A stretch of 64,000 nt of DNA from Gemmatimonadota bacterium (GTDB lineage: Bacteria > Gemmatimonadota > Gemmatimonadetes > Longimicrobiales > Gaopeijiaceae). This document shows positions 33,630-63,529 of this stretch, piece after piece (the first letter of the stretch is position 1; each line of letters begins with the position of its first letter). Under the pieces are notes generated by a model. That model ran no database searches and was not told the DNA's origin. It saw only the letters and a list, made by a program, of their open reading frames with translations. Both the position numbers and the translations under genes were made by a program. The stretch is taken from contig JAURER010000002.1 of the NCBI GenBank assembly GCA_030827315.1, positions 1 to 64,000 on the forward strand, in the 5' to 3' direction.

Positions 33630-35222
33630 TCAGCCGTCCAGCCCGTACTTCGCGATCTTCCTGTAGAGGGTGCGCTCCCCGATGCCGAGGAGCTCCGCTG
33701 CCTTTCGACGGTTCCCCTGGACTTCCTCCAGGGCGGCGACAATCGCCTCGCGCTCCATCTCCTCGATCGTCATCCCGGGGCGGAACACGACGATGGACTC
33801 CGTGACCTCGGGCTCGCGGCCGACCTCAATGTGCGCGGCACCTGGCGTGTAGGGCGCGATCTCGATCCCTGCGCGACTCTGCACGGCGAAGCCGTCATCG
33901 TCGTCGGGACCGGCCACGCGCCCGAGGATGGCGCCCCCGCCGAATGGCACCGCCATACCGCTCCGGTACGCTTCGAATTCCCGGCGCAGGTCGTCCATGT
34001 CGACCCGAAGGTCCACCAGCGTACGGAACACGAACTCGAGTTCCGGGCGAAGGCCCGCCACGCCCGAGTCCGACGAAGCCCGCGGAATCAGCGCGGGCAG
34101 GAGCGACTCTCCCCGGCCCCTGCGCACGTCGTCGGGGATGTCCTCGGGGCGGATGGCACTCCCGTGGGCCAGCACGACCATGGACTCCACCAGGTTGCGA
34201 AGCTCACGGATGTTGCCCGGCCAGCTGTACTCGATGAGGAGGTCCATCGCCTCCGGCGAGATGCCCGGGAAGGTCCGGTCGTTCCGGTCCGAGACGTCCT
34301 TGACGAACGTCTCGACGAGAAGCGGGATGTCTGCTCGTCGCTCGCGGAGCGGCGGAAGCTCGATACTGAGCACGTTGAGGCGAAAGTAGAGATCCCGCCT
34401 GAACTCACCGATGGCGACGAGCTGCCGGAGTTCCTGGTTCGTCGCTGCCACGATGCGCACGTCGATCCGGATCGATTTCTCACCGCCGACGCGATGAAAC
34501 TCCCGCTGCTCGAGCACGCGCAGCAGCTTGGTCTGCGTGGCGAGCGGCATCTCCCCGATCTCGTCGAGGAAGATCGTCCCCCCGTCTGCGAGTTCGAACA
34601 GCCCGCGACGGGCGTCGATCGCCCCGGTGAAGGCCCCTTTTTCGTGGCCGAACAGCTCGGACTCGAGGAGGCTGTCGGACAGCGCGGCCACGTTCACCGC
34701 GATGAAGGGCTTGTGCCGCCGGGGCGAGAGCGCGTGGATCCCTCTCGCGACGAGTTCCTTGCCCGTCCCCGATTCGCCCGTGACCAGCACGGTGGATGCA
34801 ACGGGCGCGATCTGCACGACACGCTCGAGTACCTGACGCATCGCGTCGGTCTGACCGACGATGCCGGTGATCGAGCGCAGTCGCATTCGCTCGATGGTGC
34901 GGCTCGCGACGAGCACGATGTCCTCGACCTCCGCCCGGGGTCCGAAGACCTCCTCGAAGCGCGAATGGGCCACCCTGCCCGCACCGCCCTCGTCCTCGAT
35001 GCCGAAGACAGGGACCTTGAGGACGTTGAAGGCCTGTCGGGCGAGCGCGCCGCCGTCGTCCTCGAGGCCGCCGGTGAGGACGAGGATGGTCGGGCGCTCC
35101 TCGGCGGTGAGCCGCTCGCCTGGGGTCACCAGGTCCGTCTCGTATCCGGCCGAATCGAAGCGCTTGCGAAGGGCGCCGGCCCGGGGCAGGTCGTGCGTCG
35201 AGATGAGCACACGCCCGATCAT
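33630..35222 (-). CDS. Sigma-54 activator (NtrC family) with a degenerate receiver
   Basis: 530-residue bacterial enhancer-binding protein. Residues 1-110 have receiver-like size and pattern, but the acidic pair and the phosphorylatable Asp are missing (the expected strand reads TILVLTGG). The AAA+ domain is intact: GESGTGKE Walker A, GAFTGA loop that contacts sigma-54, FLDEIGEM Walker B and the RELRN sensor II region. A linker of about 90 residues is followed by a Fis-type helix-turn-helix ([23 protein letters not shown]). It probably responds to something other than phosphorylation. It overlaps mogA by four bases. Confidence 0.92.
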
Positions 35223-50981: not shown

Positions 50982-51011
50982 AGGTTACCACAAAAAGTTA
51001 AGACTTGTCAA
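50982..51011 (-). promoter_or_regulatory. Candidate promoter of pilM-pilQ
   Basis: On the minus strand TTGACA (51006-51011), a perfect -35 box, is followed after 18 bases by TAACCT (50982-50987). The whole 175-base gap 50928-51102 is unusually AT-rich for this genome. pilM would start about 50 bases downstream of the expected transcription start. Confidence 0.55.
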
Positions 51012-53688: not shown

Positions 53689-55047
53689 CTACGCGATCCC
53701 GTACTCCTGGATCTTGTAACGAAGGGCGCGGGGGGAAAGCTCGAGGAGCTCGGCGGCCTGCGTCTTGTTCCCCCCGGTGCGGTCCAGCGCGAGCTGGATG
53801 AGGTGGCGTTCGAGCCGGGTCCCCTGCCTCTTCACGGAGAGGTCGTCCCCGTCCATGCCGCGCGCCGGCATCTGCGGCGCCGGCCGCCGGATCGCTTCGG
53901 GCAGATCCTCCAGCGACACGACGTCGTCCTCGGTGAGAACCAGCGCCCGCTCCAGAACGTTCTCGAGCTCACGGATGTTGCCGGGCCAGGCGTAGGAGAG
54001 CAGCAGCTCCATCGCGTCGGGGGCGATGCCGGACACGTGTATCCCGAGACGCGACGACTGCCGCTCAAGCAGGTGCAATGCCAGCTGGGGAATCTCCTCG
54101 CGGCGCGCGCGGAGAGAGGGCAGGTGGACCGGAACGACCGCCAGTCGATAGTACAGATCCTTGCGAAAGCCACCGGACTCCACGGCTTCCTCGAGATCCC
54201 TGTTCGTGGCGGCAATCACGCGCACGTCCACCGGCGTGGTGTCCATGGCACCGATCCGCCGCACCTCGCGTTCCTGAAGCGCGCGCAGCAGCTTGACCTG
54301 CAGCGCCCCGGGGAGCTCACCGACCTCGTCGAGGAAGAGCGTGCCGCCGTCCGCCACTTCGAAGAGACCGGCCTTGTCACGATCCGCGCCCGTAAACGCG
54401 CCCTTCACGAATCCGAAGAACTCAGACTCGAGAAGCTGCTCCGGAACCCCACCGCAGTTGACCGCGACGAAGGCACGATTCTTACGCGTCGACTCGCGGT
54501 GCAACATACGCGCCACAAGCTCCTTCCCGGTGCCGCTCGCACCCGTCACGAGCACCGAGGAATCGTACGGCGCGACTTTCTGAACGACGTCGAGCGCCGC
54601 ACGCATGGCGGGCGACCCGACAACGATTTCGCCGAACCTGGCATCCGCGCGAACCTCCTGGCGCAGACGTCCCACCTCCCGGCGCAGCTGCTCTCGCTCT
54701 TCCGCCTTGCCGACGATGAGCAGCACGTCGTCGGCGCCGAACGGCTTCGGGATGTAGTCGTAGGCGCCCTTCTTCATAGCCTCCAGCGCGAGGTCCAGTC
54801 CACCGTAGGCCGTCATGACAAGGATCAGCGCCTGCCCGCCCCATTTCCGGTACGCCTCGACGAATTCCAGCCCCCCGAGCCGGGGCATCCGGACGTCGCA
54901 CAGGATCATGTCGGGCGACTGTGCCTTCGCCGTGGCGAGCCCCTGCTCTCCGTCTTCCGCCTGCACGACGTCGTATCCAGCGTCGCCGAGGATGAGCGTA
55001 AGCGACTTCCGCAGACCTGCGTCGTCGTCAATGATCAGGATCTTCAC
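53689..55047 (-). CDS. NtrC-family response regulator (minor-pilin side)
   Basis: 452-residue sigma-54 activator. The receiver has the acidic pair DD and phosphorylatable D51 in LCDVRMP, then T in MTAYGG and K in PKPF. The AAA+ domain has GASGTGKE, GAFTGAD and FLDEVGEL. The Fis-type DNA-binding end is KTQAAELLELSPRALRYKIQEYG. It overlaps its partner kinase by four bases and is followed by the minor pilin genes, so it probably shares their transcript. Confidence 0.95.
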   Translation of the reverse strand: MKILIIDDDAGLRKSLTLILGDAGYDVVQAEDGEQGLATAKAQSPDMILCDVRMPRLGGLEFVEAYRKWGGQALILVMTAYGGLDLALEAMKKGAYDYIPKPFGADDVLLIVGKAEEREQLRREVGRLRQEVRADARFGEIVVGSPAMRAALDVVQKVAPYDSSVLVTGASGTGKELVARMLHRESTRKNRAFVAVNCGGVPEQLLESEFFGFVKGAFTGADRDKAGLFEVADGGTLFLDEVGELPGALQVKLLRALQEREVRRIGAMDTTPVDVRVIAATNRDLEEAVESGGFRKDLYYRLAVVPVHLPSLRARREEIPQLALHLLERQSSRLGIHVSGIAPDAMELLLSYAWPGNIRELENVLERALVLTEDDVVSLEDLPEAIRRPAPQMPARGMDGDDLSVKRQGTRLERHLIQLALDRTGGNKTQAAELLELSPRALRYKIQEYGIA

Positions 55048-56138
55048 GAATCCTCCGGGGGTGCCGTCCGTTCCGCCTCGCCGCCCTCATCGTACATGAT
55101 CGGCAGGCGAATGACGAAGTGCGCGCCGCGGCCAGAGCCGCTCCGCGCCTCGATGGTCCCGCCCATCCCTTCCAGGAGGCGGGCGCAGATCGACAGCCCC
55201 AGACCTGTACCCTCCCCCGGCTCCTTCGTCGTGAAGAAGGGGTCGAAGAGGTGCTCCGCGACATCCTCGGGGATGCCGGGCCCGTTGTCCATGATCTCGA
55301 TGACGGTGACGCGTTCCGCGCTCCGGACCGACGCCACCCCGTCCTCGTCGGCCGCGACGCGACGCCGGTGCAGATAGTTCAATGAAGGTGGATCGCCCTC
55401 CCGTCGCCGAGGCATCCGGCGTACGTCTCCCTCCTCGACCCCGACCCGCACCTGCACCTCGGGTTCAGCGACGTCCCGGACGGCATGAAGCGCGTTGAGC
55501 AGGACGTTGACGAGGACCTGTTCGAGCCGCTCGGAGTCATGCAGGAGCATCATCCCGTCGGACGCCACGTGCCAGGCTGTGGATACCGCGGTGAGCTTGC
55601 CCTGGCGCTCGAGGAGCTCGCGCACGCGCTCGACCACCTGTGACACCGAGCGCGGCTCCAGTGACGCGCGTCCGGGGCGCGCGTAGTCGAGGAGCCCGCG
55701 CACGATCCGGTCGATCCGAACGGCCTCGTCGCGGATCGCATCGAGGATCTCCGTGTCCGCCCCGTCGCGGCGGGCGCGTGCGCGAGCCACGTCCACGAAT
55801 CCGAGGATGGCACCGAGTGGATTGCCGACCTCGTGCGCGATGCCGGCCGCGAGCGTACCCGCGGATGCGAGTCGGGCCGTTCGGACCACCTGATCACGGG
55901 CCGCACGCACCTCGCGGTTGCTGGCGTCGAGAGACTCGATGTTGGCCGCGAGGAGCGCGCGTTCGCTTGCAGCGGACTCGGCCAGTCGATTCACCCCGAC
56001 CGCGATGTCGCCCAGCTCGGGGGACGCGAACCCCGACAGCCGGTGCTCGTGGGCCCCCTCGGCGATCCAGCGGATCTCCTCCGCCAGGCGCAACAACTCC
56101 GATCGGTCAGTCAGAAGCGGAACCCCACCCTCGGGCAT
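55044..56138 (-). CDS. Soluble sensor histidine kinase
   Basis: 364-residue kinase with no membrane helix. Residues 1-75 look like a HAMP or signalling helix region, followed by the H box AAGIAHEVGNPLGAILGF with the phosphorylated His. The HATPase domain has an N-box variant (NVLLNALHAV), DNGPGIP (G1), FFTTKEPGEGTGLGLSI (F and G2) and a final GAHFVIRLP. An Arg/Asp-rich insert with YLHRRR splits the HATPase domain. It pairs with the following NtrC-type regulator (ATGA overlap). With no sensor domain visible, the input may come from a protein contact. Confidence 0.92.
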   Translation of the reverse strand: MPEGGVPLLTDRSELLRLAEEIRWIAEGAHEHRLSGFASPELGDIAVGVNRLAESAASERALLAANIESLDASNREVRAARDQVVRTARLASAGTLAAGIAHEVGNPLGAILGFVDVARARARRDGADTEILDAIRDEAVRIDRIVRGLLDYARPGRASLEPRSVSQVVERVRELLERQGKLTAVSTAWHVASDGMMLLHDSERLEQVLVNVLLNALHAVRDVAEPEVQVRVGVEEGDVRRMPRRREGDPPSLNYLHRRRVAADEDGVASVRSAERVTVIEIMDNGPGIPEDVAEHLFDPFFTTKEPGEGTGLGLSICARLLEGMGGTIEARSGSGRGAHFVIRLPIMYDEGGEAERTAPPEDS

Positions 56139-56364
56139 GCCGGAGCACGCGCCGCGCGAGTCGCGCCGGTGACCAGGGTCCGCGGGCCGGCGGGCCCGGG
56201 ACGGAGCAGCTCGGGATCTCGTTCAAGGCACGCACCTCGGCTCGGTGTCTCGCTCGGACAGGGGCCCGGACGAAGCGAAGGGTGGCCCGGACACACCCGA
56301 ACCACCCTCGCGCTTCATTTCACACCCGCGTCATCTCGCGGGAGCCTGCAACTCGACCCGGAGG

Positions 56365-56763
56365 TCAGCTGGTGCAGGCGACCTCACCCGGCTGCGTCGG
56401 CGTGGCCGTCCCCACGGTCGGCGCGGCGGCCGTTCCGTAGAAGTACGCGCAGCCCTGATCGGTACCGAGCGCCATGTGGTAGGCCGTGGCGGCCCACCCG
56501 GAGGCGGTCACGTTCTGGATGGTCACGATCACGCCGTCCGAGTTCGTGAAAGCCAGATCGGCCTCGACGTCGGAGTAGGCGTAGGTGTCCGAGTAGTAGA
56601 TCTCCTGCTGGCTCGCCAGGTTCTTCAGATCGGACTTCATGGCGGCGAAGTAAGCCTTCTCACGCGTGGCGCTGAACTTCGGAATGGCGATGGCCGCCAG
56701 GATTCCAATGATCACGACCACGATGAGGAGCTCAATGAGGGTGAAACCCTTGTTGTCTCGCAT
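56365..56763 (-). CDS. pilA: Major type IV pilin PilA
   Basis: 132-residue prepilin with the short leader MRDNKG and the classic mature start FTLIELLIVVVIIGILAAIAIP, with Glu at +5. The mature pilin is about 126 residues. Two Cys near the C terminus (QGCAYF and EVACTS) can form the D-region disulfide loop. The globular domain is rich in Thr and Ser (TAAAPTVGTATPTQPG), possible O-glycosylation sites. It stands alone between the TMTC-like gene and the soluble kinase, with its own sigma-54 promoter. Confidence 0.97.
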   Translation of the reverse strand: MRDNKGFTLIELLIVVVIIGILAAIAIPKFSATREKAYFAAMKSDLKNLASQQEIYYSDTYAYSDVEADLAFTNSDGVIVTIQNVTASGWAATAYHMALGTDQGCAYFYGTAAAPTVGTATPTQPGEVACTS

Positions 56764-56816
56764 CGGAGTGACTCCAGGTGTGAGTGAACCACGGTGACGT
56801 TCGGGTCCGCGAAACG

Positions 56817-56832
56817 TGCAAACTGCGGGCCA
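56817..56832 (-). promoter_or_regulatory. Sigma-54 promoter of pilA
   Basis: The minus strand reads TGGCCCGCAGTTTGCA. It has the essential GG and GC spaced by ten bases and matches the consensus TGGCACG-N4-TTGCA at all but one fixed position. The expected start near 56806 leaves a leader of about 42 bases before the pilA ATG. An AT-rich stretch lies just upstream. The rest of the gap 56764-56987 holds no recognised feature. Confidence 0.85.
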
Positions 56833-56987
56833 TTTTCCTTAAAGGCTTGGCAAATCTAACTCAGGCAACGCGTTATGGCCACAGAGCGGATGGTCGAGTG
56901 TCGACCTCGTGGGACGAACACCGTGGGATTCTGCGATTTTCCGGCACCTTGCCAGAGTCCTGGCCACCCGCGAGACGTCGTAGTCGA

Positions 56988-58901
56988 TCAACCGCCGGAC
57001 CCCGGATCGAGGCGTTCGGAGGTGTCGACGAGCCTCGTGGCAAGGCCGAATTCGGACACCATGACCGAATCGAGCGCGCGACGACCCGCGGGCGTGCGGA
57101 CCGCGGCCCACGCGGTGTCGAGCTTGGCCTCTGCGACGAGGGGTTCCCCGCGGGCGCGGGCGGCGTACGCTTCGTAGACGTAGCCCTGCCAGAAGACGGC
57201 CCGGCCGATGTCGTCGCCCCGTGCCCGCGCTTCCGCGGCTTCGTCCATTCGTCCTTGCGCGGCCAGGGCCCATGCGAGGAGATGGTGGCGCGCTGGATCG
57301 TTCCCCTCCACCTCCCGCAGCAGCGCCTCCCGCGCCCAGCGTTCCGTTCCCACGGCATCCCCCTGCTCGGCGCGACCCGACGAAAGGAGCCGGTACGCCG
57401 TCGAAAATTCCGGTCTGTCGTTGATGGCGAAGTGCAGGAGCCGCTCGGCGCCGTCGTAGTACCCGTGGTCCGTCATGATGCGGGCGATGTCCGTGACCAG
57501 GGGGTACGCCGCCCCGAGCAGCGAGATGGCGGCCCGGTAGGAGCGGAGCGCCTCGGAAGGACGTCCGGTCCGGAGGAACTGGTCCCCCAGGACCCACTGC
57601 GACCGCCCCGACTGGGGGTAGTCGCGCACGAGGACGGTGAAGACGCTCGAGGAGTCGTACCAGGTGGCGTTGCGCGTCCACGTCCGCACCGAGGCGCCCA
57701 GGAGGAGCGCCACGACCAGGGCGGGAACGGCGCGGGGCCGCGCGCCGGCGAGCCGCACCACCAGCCAGCCCGTCGCGGCGGCGAGCCCGACGGACGGAAG
57801 GTAGAAGGCTCGCTCCGCCAGCAGCACGCCTGAGAGGAACACGGTGTTGGAAACCGGCGAGATGGCGATGAGGAACCAGACGACGCCGAAGGCGGCGGCC
57901 TTCTCGGTGTCGCGGCCCCGGGCGAGATCGGGGCGTCGCCACGCGATGAGCGTGATGCCGAGGATAAGCAGGGCGAGCAGGACCCCAACGGTGTTCTGCA
58001 ACTCCCAGGAGGTCGTGACCCGGATGACGTTGGGGGAGTAGTCGGCCGACAGATCGAGAGGGAAGACCCAGAGCCGCACGTAGTGAAGCCAGACCTCTCC
58101 CAGCGTCCAGATGCGCGGAACCTCCTCGAGCAGCATGGCGCCGAGCGGGGGAAAGGGGCTGGCCAGGCTTCCGAGCACGAAGTGCCGCGCCACGAGGAGC
58201 CCGGCGGCGACGGCGAGCATGACCACGTAAACGCGCCAACGGTCCCTGACGTACGCTGGCAGCTCGGCGAACCCGAGGGGGCGACGGGCAGCGTCGACCA
58301 GCAGCACGAGCCCGGGGAGGGTCACCCCGCTCTCCTTCGCGCCGAACGCGAAGAAGTAGAGCACTCCGATCCCCATCGCGGTGCCCCAGCGCGTCACCGC
58401 GCCCCCGCGTACGTGCACGAGCAGGGCCGCCAGGACCGCGGCGGTCGAAAGGATCTCGGAAAAGCCGACCACGTTCGCCACGGCCTCGACATGCACGGGG
58501 TGCACTGCGAAGACGAGCGCGGCCAACGTCGCGGCGGCGAGCGACATGAACTCCACGAGGAGCGCGAGGACGAGCAGTGTGGCCACCACGTGCGTGGCGA
58601 CGTTGACCGCGTGGAAGACGACCGGAGCGCCCCCACCCGCCATCCACTGCAGCCCGAAGAGAGCGGTCGTGACCGGGCGCCACAGACCGAGGCCCTGGCC
58701 GTAGTCGTTGGGCCAGTAAGGCGCGACCAGGGCCCCCGGGAGTGTGCCCAGCGCGTGGATCGCCGTGTTGTGCTCGACGATGTGGAGGTCGTCGTAGGCG
58801 TAGAGGTTGGAAAGCGAATTCGCGTACACCAGCGCCGCCAGCAGCCCCACCAGCAGAGCAGCGGTGCGCACGTCGCGCACGGGCGACCCGAGTCGCGTCA
58901 T
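56988..58901 (-). CDS. TMTC-like membrane protein with TPR tail (putative GT-C glycosyltransferase)
   Basis: 637-residue protein with about ten membrane helices (residues 10-430) and a soluble TPR-like region (about 445-637). The first periplasmic loop has [10 protein letters not shown] with D37-D38, the acidic pair seen in GT-C enzymes; WRPVTT, VNVATHV and [16 protein letters not shown] are typical of TMTC/DUF1736 proteins. Such enzymes move a sugar from a polyprenyl-phosphate donor onto protein. Its start overlaps a GT2 gene of the DPM type, which would make that donor. pilA is the next gene downstream, making the pilin a plausible target. The activity is inferred. Confidence 0.78.
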
Positions 58902-59749
58902 GCGCGCTCCTCCTCCGAGGCGACGCGCGTGAGCGAGATCGACGAGAGCCGTTCCGGTGTGTCCCACAGCGGCACGTCCGGTGGCGTCCACGGGCGGGCC
59001 TTCGGCCCGAAGACGTTGTACCTCACGATGCACCAGAGAGCCGAGACGCCGTCCTTCCAGCCGATCTTCTTCCCCTCCTCGTACGACCGTCCGTCGTAGC
59101 TGATGGGCAGCTCGTAGATCTTCGCCCGTGCCTGCGCCAGCCGGGCCGTGAGCTCCGGTTCGATGCCGAACCGGTTGGCGGACAGCGGAAGCGTATGGAG
59201 CAGCTCGCGGCGAACCATCTTGTAGCAGGTTTCCATGTCCGTGAGGTTCACGTCGGTGAACATGTTGGACAGGAGCGTGAGGACGCGGTTACCGACCGAG
59301 TGCCAGAAGAAGAGGACGCGGTGTGGTCCCCCGAGGAAGCGCGACCCGTACACCGCGTCTGCCTTCCCGGCGAGGATCGGCTGGAGCAGAATCGGAAACT
59401 CCCGCGGGTTGTACTCCATGTCTGCGTCCTGGACGACGACGACGTCACCTGTGGCGTGCTGGAACCCCGTGCGCAGCGCCGCTCCCTTTCCGCGGTTCTT
59501 CTCGTGGAGCACCAGGGTGTCGATGAGTGTCCCTTCCAGACGCGGCAGGATATCGCGGGTGCCGTCGGTCGACCCGTCGTCGACGACGATGACCTCGAGC
59601 TGGAGCGGGACCTCGCGCACCTTGTGCAGGAGCTGTTCGACCGTCCGGGCCTCGTTGTAGACCGGCACGACCACCGAGAGGCGAACGCGATCCCAGGCGA
59701 GGTCGTCACTCGAGCCCAGATCGTGGCGTCGGAGTCCGGGGTTGATCAT
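58898..59749 (-). CDS. GT2 glycosyltransferase, polyprenyl-phosphate sugar synthase type
   Basis: 283-residue GT-A enzyme: [46 protein letters not shown] (DXD-like metal site) and GSRFLGG. This set matches dolichyl/polyprenyl-phosphate mannose or glucose synthases. No C-terminal membrane helices are present, as in the soluble DPM1 type. The sugar cannot be told. It overlaps the PilR-type regulator gene upstream and the TMTC-like gene downstream by four bases each, tying both to the PilSR operon. Confidence 0.88.
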
Positions 59750-61095
59750 TCTTCGATCCCGTATCGGTTGAGCTTGCGGTAGAGCGTGGACGGGTCGATG
59801 CCCAGGACATCGGCCGCACGCGTCTTGTTTCCGCCCTCCGACTGCAGGACCCAGAGAATGTACGCCCGCTCCACCACTTCCATGGTGGGATTCGGCGGCA
59901 GGTCGTTCGCACCCAGCCTCGGGGGCGGAGCCTCCCGGACCCGATCCGGCAGCGCATCCGGGCCGACGACGGACCCACTCGACACCACCGCGGCACGTTC
60001 GAGCGCATTTTCCAGCTCGCGCACGTTACCGGGCCAGTGGTAGGCCGTGAGGATGTCCATTGCCTCCTCCGACACGGTGCGCGGCTCGCCGCTCCCTGGC
60101 TTGCGCTGAAGAAAGTGCCGAACGAGGAGCGGGATGTCTTCGCGCCGCTCGCGCAGGGGCGGCAGGTGGAGCTGAATGACGTTCAGCCTGTAGTAGAGGT
60201 CGCTCCGGAATCCACCCCGCGCCATCTCCTCTTCGAGGTCGCGGTTGGTAGCGGCGATGATCCGGACGTCGACCGGCACCGCGCGGGTCGAGCCCACCGG
60301 AGTCACCTCGCGTTCCTGGATCGCGCGGAGCAGCTTGACCTGGGTCTGGGGGCTCATTTCCCCGATCTCATCGAGGAAGAAGGTCCCATCCGCCGCCGCC
60401 ACGAGCAGGCCGTCCCGGTCGCGGACCGCGCCCGTGAAGGCACCCTTCACGTGGCCGAAGAGTTCGCTTTCAAGGAGGCTTTCGGGGAGCGCACCGCAGT
60501 TGACCGACAGGAAGGGGCCGCCGGCACGTTGCGAGAGTGCGTGGATGTACCGGGCCACCACCTCCTTGCCCGTTCCGCTCTCACCGGAAATCAGCACGGT
60601 CGAGTCCGTCGCCGCCACGGTCTCGGCCAGTTCGAGAACCTCCTCGAAGCGCGGCGCTGCGCCGACGGGACGATTCCCCTCCCGCCTCGGACGGCTTCGG
60701 ATCTCGTTCTTGAGCTGGCGGTTCTCGACCTTGAGACGGCGCGCCTCGGCGGCCCGGCGGCAGATGGCGAGAAGTTCGTCGTTGGCGAAGGGCTTCTGCA
60801 GATAGTAGTAGGCCCCCTCGTTCACCGCGCGGACCGCCGACTGCAGGGACGCCTGAGCCGTCATGAGGATCACCGGCATCTCGCTGTCGACTTCGCGGGC
60901 CTGCGTGAGCACCTCGAGCCCGCTCGCTCCGGGCATGCGGATGTCGGTGAGGACGAGATCCGGCCTCTCGTCTTCGAGCGCCGCCAGCGCCTTGGGTCCG
61001 GAGTCGGCCACCGCAACCTGCCAGCCTTCGCCCCTGAGGAGGATCGAGAGCGTGTCGAGGATGGCGGTCTCGTCGTCCACCAGCAGAATCTTCAC
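59746..61095 (-). CDS. pilR: PilR-type NtrC response regulator
   Basis: 449-residue sigma-54 activator. The receiver has DDE at 7-9, the phosphorylated D51 in LTDIRMP and K in QKPF. The AAA+ domain has [15 protein letters not shown] and FLDEIGEM; the Fis-type end is [24 protein letters not shown] start at the GTG at 61095, which gives MKILLVDDE and overlaps the kinase stop (GTGA). It is the likely activator of the pilA sigma-54 promoter, judged from its PilS-like partner. Confidence 0.93.
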
Positions 61096-62819
61096 GCGGT
61101 CGCTCCGGCCGTTGGTGCATCGGCGCCACACGAGGCACCTGGAAGGAAGATCACGAACTCGGCTCCGACGTCGCGGCCCTCCTCGACGAAGGTGACCCCC
61201 GCGTGGGCCTCGACGGCACGATGGACCACCGCGAGACCCATTCCGCTGCCGCCCGACTTCGTCGTGAAGAAGGGATCGAAGATACGCTCTCGCTCGTCCT
61301 CGGCGATCCCGGGGCCCGTATCGGAGACCGAGAGGCGAACGGGTCGCTCGATCTCCGTCCCACGGGGCCGTCGGCGATCGGGTTCATTGGAGAGACGCAC
61401 CGTGACCCGGCCGCCCGGCCCGGCCGACTGCGCCCCGTTGAGCACGAGATTGAAGAGCGCACGGTGCAGGAGATCGGCATCCCCCACCACGAAGACGGGA
61501 CCGTCGTCGAGCTCCGTCACCACGTCCACGCCCTCGAGATCCGGGTGCTGCCCGGCCACGAGCAGGCACCCCTGCACGAGCGTGCGCAGATCCAGCTCGT
61601 CCCGGTGTGCCATCCCCAGGCCCGAATAGTCGAGGAACTCGGACAGCAGACGGCTGAGGCGGTCGGATTCGGCGAGCACCAGGCGCTGGAGCACTTCGCG
61701 GTCGGGCTCGGCGAGACGGCCGTGGCCGAGCTGCTCGACGGCGGAGCGAATGGAGGCGAGCGGGTTCTTGATCTCGTGCGCGAGTGACGCCGACAGGGTC
61801 GCAACCGCTTCCAGCCGCTCGGTCCGTACCCTGAGGGCGTCCAGGCGCTCGACGTCGGTGACGTCCTGAAAGAGCACGGTAGCCGACGGCAGCTCTTCCC
61901 CGCCCCGGTCCAGCACGGCGGTACTGACGCCCAGCTGAATGGCGCGGCGGCTCGACCCGACTGCGACGCGCCCGTGAGACACCGCGACCCGCCGATGAAT
62001 CGCCTCCTGGAGGAGCGAGCCCAGCGAAGGGGCGACGCCATCGAGTTCTTCGAGGACTCGCTCACCGAGCCGATGCTGCAAACGAATTCCCAGGAGGCCT
62101 TCCGCGGCAGGGTTCGCATACGCCAGCCGCCCGGTGCCGTCCACGGTGATGACGCCCGTCGAGAGCGTGGCCAGGATGTCGTCGGTGTCGAGCCGCAGCT
62201 GATACAGCTCCGAGGCGACGGCGCCGAGCGCCTGGCCCGCGCGCCGGAGACGATCTCCGAGGAGTGCCGTGATCAGCGCCACCACCGAAAACAGGATGAC
62301 GCGGAGTCCGACGAAGATCGTGAAGGGCTCCGCGAAGCCCCACACGAGATCGGCTGTGTAGAGGATGCTCGAGAGTCCCCCGATAAGGAGCCCGCCGAAC
62401 AGCGGAAGCAGCAGCGCGCCCGCACTGATGACCAGGACGTAGAGCGACGCGAAGCCCGAGTCCGGCCCTCCCGTCAGGTGCACGATCCCCGTGACGAGCA
62501 GGGCGTCGAAGATGACCTGCGCGTAGAGAAAGTTTCCGCTCGGCTCGCTCCGCCGCACGTGCGTGACCCAGAAGGACCCCGCGGTCAGACAGACCGACAG
62601 GAGTAAGAGCACGATCACAACGACCGTGTCAGGCCTTCGCGCGTCGAACCAGCTGACGAGCGCCGCGACCAGGATGCCGGTCACCAGTGTCAGTCGCCCG
62701 ACATAAAGCCAGCGAAGCAGGTTCGCGCGGACCAGCCCGGGGGCGGTGTGTTCCTGCGGTGTGCTCGACGTGACCAAACTCGACCGTGGGCCTGGGGCGG
62801 ACTGCGCCTTCGGACCCAC
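61092..62819 (-). CDS. pilS: PilS-type membrane histidine kinase
   Basis: 575-residue kinase with six membrane helices (about 35-210), the number in PilS, then a PAS domain (about 225-335), the H box ASLAHEIKNPLASIRSAVEQL, and the ATPase domain with NLVLNGAQSA (N), SDTGPGIAEDE (G1) and FFTTKSGGSGMGLAV (F, G2). In Pseudomonas PilS senses pilin in the membrane. The GTG at 62819 is one possible start; a TTG at 62777 is another and would remove 14 polar residues. It is followed by the pilR gene with a four-base overlap. Confidence 0.9.
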   Translation of the reverse strand: MGPKAQSAPGPRSSLVTSSTPQEHTAPGLVRANLLRWLYVGRLTLVTGILVAALVSWFDARRPDTVVVIVLLLLSVCLTAGSFWVTHVRRSEPSGNFLYAQVIFDALLVTGIVHLTGGPDSGFASLYVLVISAGALLLPLFGGLLIGGLSSILYTADLVWGFAEPFTIFVGLRVILFSVVALITALLGDRLRRAGQALGAVASELYQLRLDTDDILATLSTGVITVDGTGRLAYANPAAEGLLGIRLQHRLGERVLEELDGVAPSLGSLLQEAIHRRVAVSHGRVAVGSSRRAIQLGVSTAVLDRGGEELPSATVLFQDVTDVERLDALRVRTERLEAVATLSASLAHEIKNPLASIRSAVEQLGHGRLAEPDREVLQRLVLAESDRLSRLLSEFLDYSGLGMAHRDELDLRTLVQGCLLVAGQHPDLEGVDVVTELDDGPVFVVGDADLLHRALFNLVLNGAQSAGPGGRVTVRLSNEPDRRRPRGTEIERPVRLSVSDTGPGIAEDERERIFDPFFTTKSGGSGMGLAVVHRAVEAHAGVTFVEEGRDVGAEFVIFLPGASCGADAPTAGATA

Positions 62820-62881
62820 GGTACACAGCGAGTGTCGCAAGTTGCAACCCCCGGGTTCTGGCAGATTGCAAGCCCCGGTCG

Positions 62882-63529
62882 CTAGCTCCGGTCGGGGCGA
62901 GGGATCCGCCGTATCTCCGACGCGACCGCGTACGCCTCGCCTCCCAGTCGACCCACCGGCCGCAACTGTTCGGGGAGGACGACCATCGTCCCCTCCTCGA
63001 ATTCGAGCGCGGGATCGAGTCGGACGCCAACGACCTCGGCGATCACCAGCGCGTTGGGCGCACCGCCGAGATCCACCTCCTGGCGGAACTCGCACTCCAG
63101 CACCGCGGGGCATTCCGCCACGTAGGGCGCGTCGACGCGGGGCGAGACCGCGAGCCCGAGGCCCGCGAGCTCGAACTCGTCGACGTCCGGCGGCACGTTC
63201 GCGGAGGACTCGTTCATGGCCTCGATCAGTGACTCCGTGACCACGTTGACGCAGAACGCGCCGCGCGCTCGGACGTTCACGATCGAGTCCTTGAGCTCTC
63301 TCCGCCGCTGGCCGATCGAGACGCAGACGAGCATCGGGTCGACCGAGATCGCCGCGAAATAGCTGAAGGGCGCCAGGTTCGGCACGCCGTCCGGGCCCCA
63401 GGTGGAAAGCCAGCCGATGGGACGCGGCACGACCAGCGAGGTCATGAGCTGGTAGCGCTCGCGGGCGGATACCCCGGCAGGCGCGAGCACGCGAGTCGCC
63501 AGCGGCGGTGTGTCGGACAGGTGCTTCAC
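62882..63529 (-). CDS. Flavin reductase-like FMN-binding protein
   Basis: 215-residue protein with the split-barrel fold of the flavin reductase family. Its N-terminal RYQLMTSLVVPRPIGWLSTW and NLAPFSYFAAISVDPMLV blocks are the FMN-binding signature, with GAFCVNVV following. Members either reduce flavin for a monooxygenase or bind FMN for other redox work. No monooxygenase is nearby. It lies about 60 bases upstream of pilS on the same strand. Confidence 0.85.
   Translation of the reverse strand: MKHLSDTPPLATRVLAPAGVSARERYQLMTSLVVPRPIGWLSTWGPDGVPNLAPFSYFAAISVDPMLVCVSIGQRRRELKDSIVNVRARGAFCVNVVTESLIEAMNESSANVPPDVDEFELAGLGLAVSPRVDAPYVAECPAVLECEFRQEVDLGGAPNALVIAEVVGVRLDPALEFEEGTMVVLPEQLRPVGRLGGEAYAVASEIRRIPRPDRS

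Follow-up and report, generated by a model that had tools for sequence, protein, structure and literature searches.

In the window (the whole 64,000-nucleotide stretch that was analysed), a pilA-like type IV pilin gene is flanked by regulatory genes on both sides, all on the minus strand (Table 1). A histidine kinase without a predicted membrane segment and an NtrC-type regulator lie downstream of it, and upstream a second NtrC-type regulator adjoins a PilS-type membrane kinase; the names PilR1 and PilR2 were coined in this analysis. The start codon of the PilS-like kinase is uncertain, and its 6TM match starts at residue 133. The 25 best NCBIfam matches of each regulator include many NtrC-type families, and no cut-off is exceeded among them. 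The closest named matches of PilR1 come from Gemmatimonadota assemblies (L043 with 84% identity, L044 with 69%, and L045–L050 with 57–59%), which points to a member of this phylum as the source. The genome contains a single rpoN match, an intact open reading frame of 502 aa (PF04552, 213.3 bits; TIGR02395, 411 bits against a cut-off of 277) whose product includes the sequence ARRTVAKYRD, presumably the typical RpoN box. The sigma-54 activator domain PF00158 is matched nine times in the genome, six times strongly (E 1.7e-65 or better); a third strong domain in the window is located at 34359–34862, and three of the six strong ones of the genome thus fall within 64 kb. A second pilin, encoded elsewhere in the genome (G000:C45:76572-76949), is 58% identical to PilA, and the best -24/-12-like match in the 160 bases upstream of it is poor.

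Table 1. Genes and putative promoter elements of the pilA locus, with the evidence for each
Feature	Position	Strand	Evidence
NtrC-type response regulator PilR1, downstream of pilA	53689..55047	minus	domains; GAFTGA; ortholog distribution
Histidine kinase with no predicted membrane segment, encoded between PilR1 and pilA	55044..56138	minus	HisKA, HATPase_c; top 19-residue hydropathy 1.14
pilA-like type IV pilin, 132 aa	56365..56763	minus	ORF; PF07963 prepilin motif; TIGR02532 over cut-off
Sigma-54 -24/-12 element TGGCCCGCAGTTTGCA	56817..56832	minus	read in sequence, conservation and held-out score
Proximal 25-bp element TAACGCGTTGCCTGAGTTAGATTTG	56851..56875	minus	alignment and matrices; 43 bases before T of TGG
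Distal element ACTCTGGCAAGGTGCCGGAAAATCGCAGAATCCCA, consensus core TTGCAGAATCC; candidate activator site	56924..56958	minus	alignment and matrices; 126 bases before T of TGG
NtrC-type response regulator PilR2, upstream of pilA	59746..61131	minus	receiver, sigma-54 interaction and Fis-type HTH domains; GAFTGA; co-occurrence
PilS-like histidine kinase with membrane segments	61092..63113	minus	PF25323 6TM_PilS 43.0 bits, cut-off 27; hydrophobic stretches

Read on the minus strand from 56832 to 56817, TGGCCCGCAGTTTGCA runs TGGCCCG-CAGT-TTGCA, with exact GG-N10-GC spacing, and its core differs by one mismatch (C for A) from the sigma-54 consensus TGGCACG-N4-TTGCW as given in PMC2725144. An earlier note on this DNA had described the same spacing and single mismatch, both of which hold on re-reading, and had placed the element about 54 bases before the pilA ATG (56763–56761), where 53 bases were measured between the two. 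The gene 5' of pilA ends at 56988, leaving an intergenic gap of 224 bases, and the entire promoter therefore lies within this gap. Taking C as -12, the transcription start of pilA is predicted near 56806, in agreement with the earlier note. The earlier note had also read a sigma-54 control logic from the two NtrC-type regulators encoded on either side of pilA; both carry GAFTGA in an AAA+ domain of the sigma-54 activator type, and together with the intact rpoN and with the -24/-12 element, conserved in part of the order, they support it.

By sequence match alone, TGGCCCGCAGTTTGCA is no better than chance. With at most three mismatches allowed, the window holds 55 motif matches (70.7 expected), of which four have a single mismatch, and TGGCNCGN4TTGCW occurs twice in the 3.07-Mb genome against seven times for the reversed control. 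The one other genome match to this pattern could be set aside: it is located at 54500–54515, within the coding sequence of PilR1, eight named relatives were inspected and all have lost or never had TGG-N8-TTGC at that position, and as a second sigma-54 site it is taken as a chance occurrence. The site before pilA rises above chance because it is intergenic, is conserved with exact spacing and is accompanied by two more conserved blocks, each at its own set distance. Its held-out matrix score is 11.5 bits, which is reached at three window positions (both strands, itself included).

To analyze the conservation of the spacing, the regions upstream of pilA were compared across the order. A pilin match was found in 29 of 30 relatives and in 94 of 116 genomes of family f1; of the latter, genomes whose best pilin match did not reach E 1e-25 were left out, and 100 of the 106 that entered the scan were usable, five being without a recognised pilin and one having too short an upstream region. 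TGG-N8-TTGC was present in 38 of these 100 related, non-independent upstream regions, whereas each of 12 other spacings (3 to 15) was seen on the same strand in 0–3 (N9 in 2) and the opposite strand gave 0–8. When a single mismatch was tolerated outside GG and GC, the count was 54 of 100, against 8–22 on the same strand and 6–32 on the opposite one.

The alignment, at TGG, of 52 upstream regions with a site between -126 and -58 revealed two further blocks. Three of these promoters with unconserved flanks (G061, G063 and G114) were removed, leaving 49, and were counted as promoter-less in the co-occurrence analysis. The proximal block is a palindrome with the consensus TAAGTC.TTGT...A.AA.GACTTA in relatives, read as TAAGTC.TTGT...ACAA.GACTTA across the 49 promoters; its matrix, built with genus g1 held out and seeded by offset alone, correlates with its own reverse complement at 0.87, and at no more than 0.28 when the centre is shifted. 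The source genome carries a degenerate version of the palindrome, in which 4 of the 12 dyad pairs agree, and the proximal element scores 13.2 bits held out, a level found at a fraction 4.7e-5 of window positions. The distal block, which ends TTGCAGAATCCAA in the 49 aligned promoters, has a held-out score of 28.3 bits here, the best in the window, the next being 12.2. Relative to the T of TGG, the palindrome is positioned at -43/-44 in 41 of 49 promoters and the distal element between -128 and -124 in 42, offsets that were measured with the same matrices, with a training shift of 3 bases allowed, and thus lean towards the trained positions; the distance from the ATG to the T of TGG varies from 64 to 123 bases. 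With matrices trained without genus g1, the combined score is 53.0 at this locus and 3.6 at the runner-up among the GG-N10-GC sites of the window. In relatives, the -24/-12 site is thus part of a putative promoter of nearly fixed geometry.

The distal core pattern TTGCARAWTCCMA was matched 10 times, in 9 of the 12 genomes searched. Eight of these matches are at pilA, and the remaining two read like coding sequence. The source genome (G000) is one base off the pattern and so is not among the matches, G005 and G009 are likewise missed, and G016 matches only away from pilA. The proximal element also has a match upstream of pilM (51000–50976), which at 15.3 bits exceeds the one at pilA. The follow-up covered 26 sequences, 10 with a recognised pilM start, and in 6 of these 10 upstream regions each of two features was aligned: TTGACA and, further upstream, a block resembling CAAATGTTTA. 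A sigma-70-like promoter, TTGACA-N17-GTAACC, is located 5' of pilM at 50983–51011 on the minus strand, and the match was rejected as a second operator since it overlaps this promoter, whose TTGACA is the aligned one. The pilM operon may thus use another sigma factor than pilA.

To extend the analysis across the phylum, a gapped pattern of the distal core and the -24/-12 element was searched with the palindrome left out, which yielded 55 matches in 52 of 395 genomes and 2 control matches. Family f1, on which the pattern was modelled, accounts for 21 of the 55, and the match strings of 35 were inspected. At 23 loci checked in families f4 and f5, a pilin lies within 260 bases in 17, is missing in 5 and is cut off by the contig edge in 1. 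On visual inspection, most f4 and f9 rows show the palindrome at about the same offset, and it is displaced in some rows of f5. In the chromosomes L045, L046 and L048, the -24/-12 element is located 78–79 bases 5' of a pilin, with a palindrome match at -43 of 17.6, 17.4 and 13.3 bits, respectively, and a weak distal match (6.6–9.4 bits; the 99.9th percentile of the background is 7.2). Among 72 relatives of PilR1 outside Gemmatimonadota by title (L051–L122), five (L054, L056, L065, L071 and L084) are followed by TGG-N8-TTGC before a pilin-like gene, about 1.06 kb past the regulator in L065 and about 70–270 bases past it in the other four.

The distribution of the regulators was then set against that of the promoter. 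PilR1 was searched in 112 genomes and PilR2 in 108 at E 1e-130, followed by 57 and 51 named genomes, respectively, at E 1e-115; matches of at least 57% identity were called orthologs, and those of 45–49% were read as the paralog or another regulator. A genome was labelled promoter-bearing when the sigma-54 and proximal elements each exceeded 5 bits; the training set of the matrices included many of these genomes but left out genus g1. Of 89 classified f1 genomes, 41 bear the promoter and 48 do not. One or both regulators occur in 39 of the 41 (both in 29, PilR2 only in 6, PilR1 only in 4, neither in 2), and neither occurs in 42 of the 48 promoter-less genomes, the other 6 having one or both. 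PilR2 is found in 35 promoter-bearing genomes and PilR1 in 33. The six exceptions for PilR2, i.e., the PilR1-only and the regulator-less genomes, are all drafts less than 90% complete, and PilR2 is present in every promoter-scored f1 genome that is at least 90% complete. The two regulator-less drafts are G081 (76% complete) and G128 (73%), the latter being a promoter-bearing member of genus g50.

The six genomes with a regulator and no promoter at the scored pilin are G014, G131, G007, G077, G086 and G105. In G014 the promoter stands beside the other pilin, in G131 the pattern matches on another contig with no adjoining pilin shown, the best pilin of G086 is located at a contig start, and G007, a 64% complete member of g1, has PilR2. 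Both promoter states occur within genera g1, g4, g47 and g49, where the regulators mostly follow the promoter, which suggests that promoter and regulators may have been lost together repeatedly; the co-occurrence itself is confounded by shared ancestry. The PilR1 match of G065 (G065:C54:7133-8287) has two in-frame TGA codons, and the gene may therefore be broken there.

Of the 154 genomes of the order, 144 gave an rpoN match. The gene does not track the promoter, because it is matched in 40 of the 42 f1 genomes that show no promoter and no regulator, and four promoter-bearing genomes, in 250–580 contigs, show none: G010 (63% complete), G078 (90%), G081 (76%) and G083 (89%). Genus g48 has rpoN in 2 of 5 genomes, with no match found in G117, G119 and G120, one of which is 94% complete; this contrast is uninformative, since the three upstream regions scanned, with rpoN (G116) and without it (G117, G120), all miss the site.

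Considering the conserved spacing and the co-occurrence pattern, we regard TGGCCCGCAGTTTGCA as very probably the -24/-12 recognition element of a sigma-54 promoter of pilA that is opened in an activator-dependent manner. RNA polymerase with RpoN would sit on it as a closed complex, a phosphorylated NtrC-type activator bound upstream would spend ATP to open this complex, and pilA would be produced only on signal. The activator would most likely be PilR2, driven by the membrane kinase PilS, and would probably bind at the distal element, the proximal element or both. PilR2 rather than PilR1 is the best-fitting candidate because three near-complete genomes retain the promoter without a PilR1 ortholog.

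The palindrome could be the operator of a separate factor, a repressor or a DNA-bending protein, with only the distal element serving the sigma-54 activator, a reading to which we give somewhat less than an even chance. The two elements are unlike in sequence (best 11-bp correlation 0.46), and IHF commonly binds between enhancer and promoter at RpoN-dependent promoters according to PMC7962754; however, the palindrome is fixed beside -24 and is retained jointly with the distal element even where PilR1 was not found, and a single activator fits equally. The possibility that the promoter is sigma-54-dependent and PilR1, with the membrane-segment-less kinase just downstream of pilA, is the main activator appears unlikely. 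pilA, this kinase and PilR1 adjoin in gene order and PilR1 accompanies most f1 promoters, but no PilR1 ortholog was found in the promoter-bearing genomes G064 (98% complete), G122 (97%) and G123 (94%) or in the drafts G010, G099 and G124, all of which have PilR2. That a sigma-70-type polymerase transcribes pilA and the -24/-12 match is coincidental is highly improbable: the bare motif is indeed no rarer than chance, and pilA can presumably be expressed otherwise, given the 42 f1 genomes in which both the promoter and the regulators are missing, but the conservation is spacing-specific, two further elements stand at set distances, the promoter co-occurs with sigma-54 activators, and no sigma-70 consensus match was found at 56340–57000, which is a weak test because shuffled sequences yield none either. 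Genomes that miss the sigma-54 site were also searched for sigma-70 promoters, and this likewise gave nothing above shuffles.

Taken at its broadest, the sigma-54 reading leads us to hypothesize, tentatively, that several families of this Gemmatimonadota class share a previously undescribed pilA promoter of set geometry (distal site, palindrome and -24/-12 element), acted on by PilS-PilR2 and perhaps by the second pair, in which the palindrome would be a second activator contact or would serve an unknown partner; the promoter and its activators would have been lost jointly in several lineages that keep rpoN and pilA.

Control of pilA by sigma-54 and PilR is of an already known kind, and what is new here is the phylum, the palindrome at a set distance and the paired regulators. 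A literature search on sigma-54/RpoN, type IV pili and pilA in Gemmatimonads returned no title on pilin control in the phylum, and the word pilA is absent from the sigma-54 survey PMC3162934. The locus thus extends sigma-54/PilR pilin control to the little-studied Gemmatimonadota, offers a three-part promoter with candidate activator sites, and provides natural contrasts between members of one genus, some of which miss the promoter and the activators alike. In Pseudomonas aeruginosa, as outlined in PMC6058289, the pilA promoter is acted on by sigma-54, the NtrC-type PilR and a PilS with six membrane segments, and the source genome similarly combines rpoN and a -24/-12 element with a 6TM_PilS kinase that adjoins an NtrC-type regulator. 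The hallmark of the P. aeruginosa PilR site in the same source, TGT-N11-AGA, is that of one species and is not known to define the circuit elsewhere; it occurs 10 times in the window against 10.6 expected and is absent from the pilA promoter, and the locus further differs from P. aeruginosa in the second regulator pair beside pilA and in the set-distance palindrome of its relatives. In Geobacter sulfurreducens, PMC2725144 describes an RpoN promoter of pilA identified by 5'-RACE and regulation of pilA by a PilR encoded in the adjoining gene, so that the start is mapped there whereas it is predicted from sequence here. In Myxococcus xanthus, in the account of PMC6211767, pilA is influenced by two NtrC-like regulators: motility requires PilR, and NmpR is a modulator that showed no binding to the pilA promoter and is proposed to work via pilR. 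The locus described here likewise has two NtrC-type regulators, and PilR1 is encoded at the pilA locus itself.
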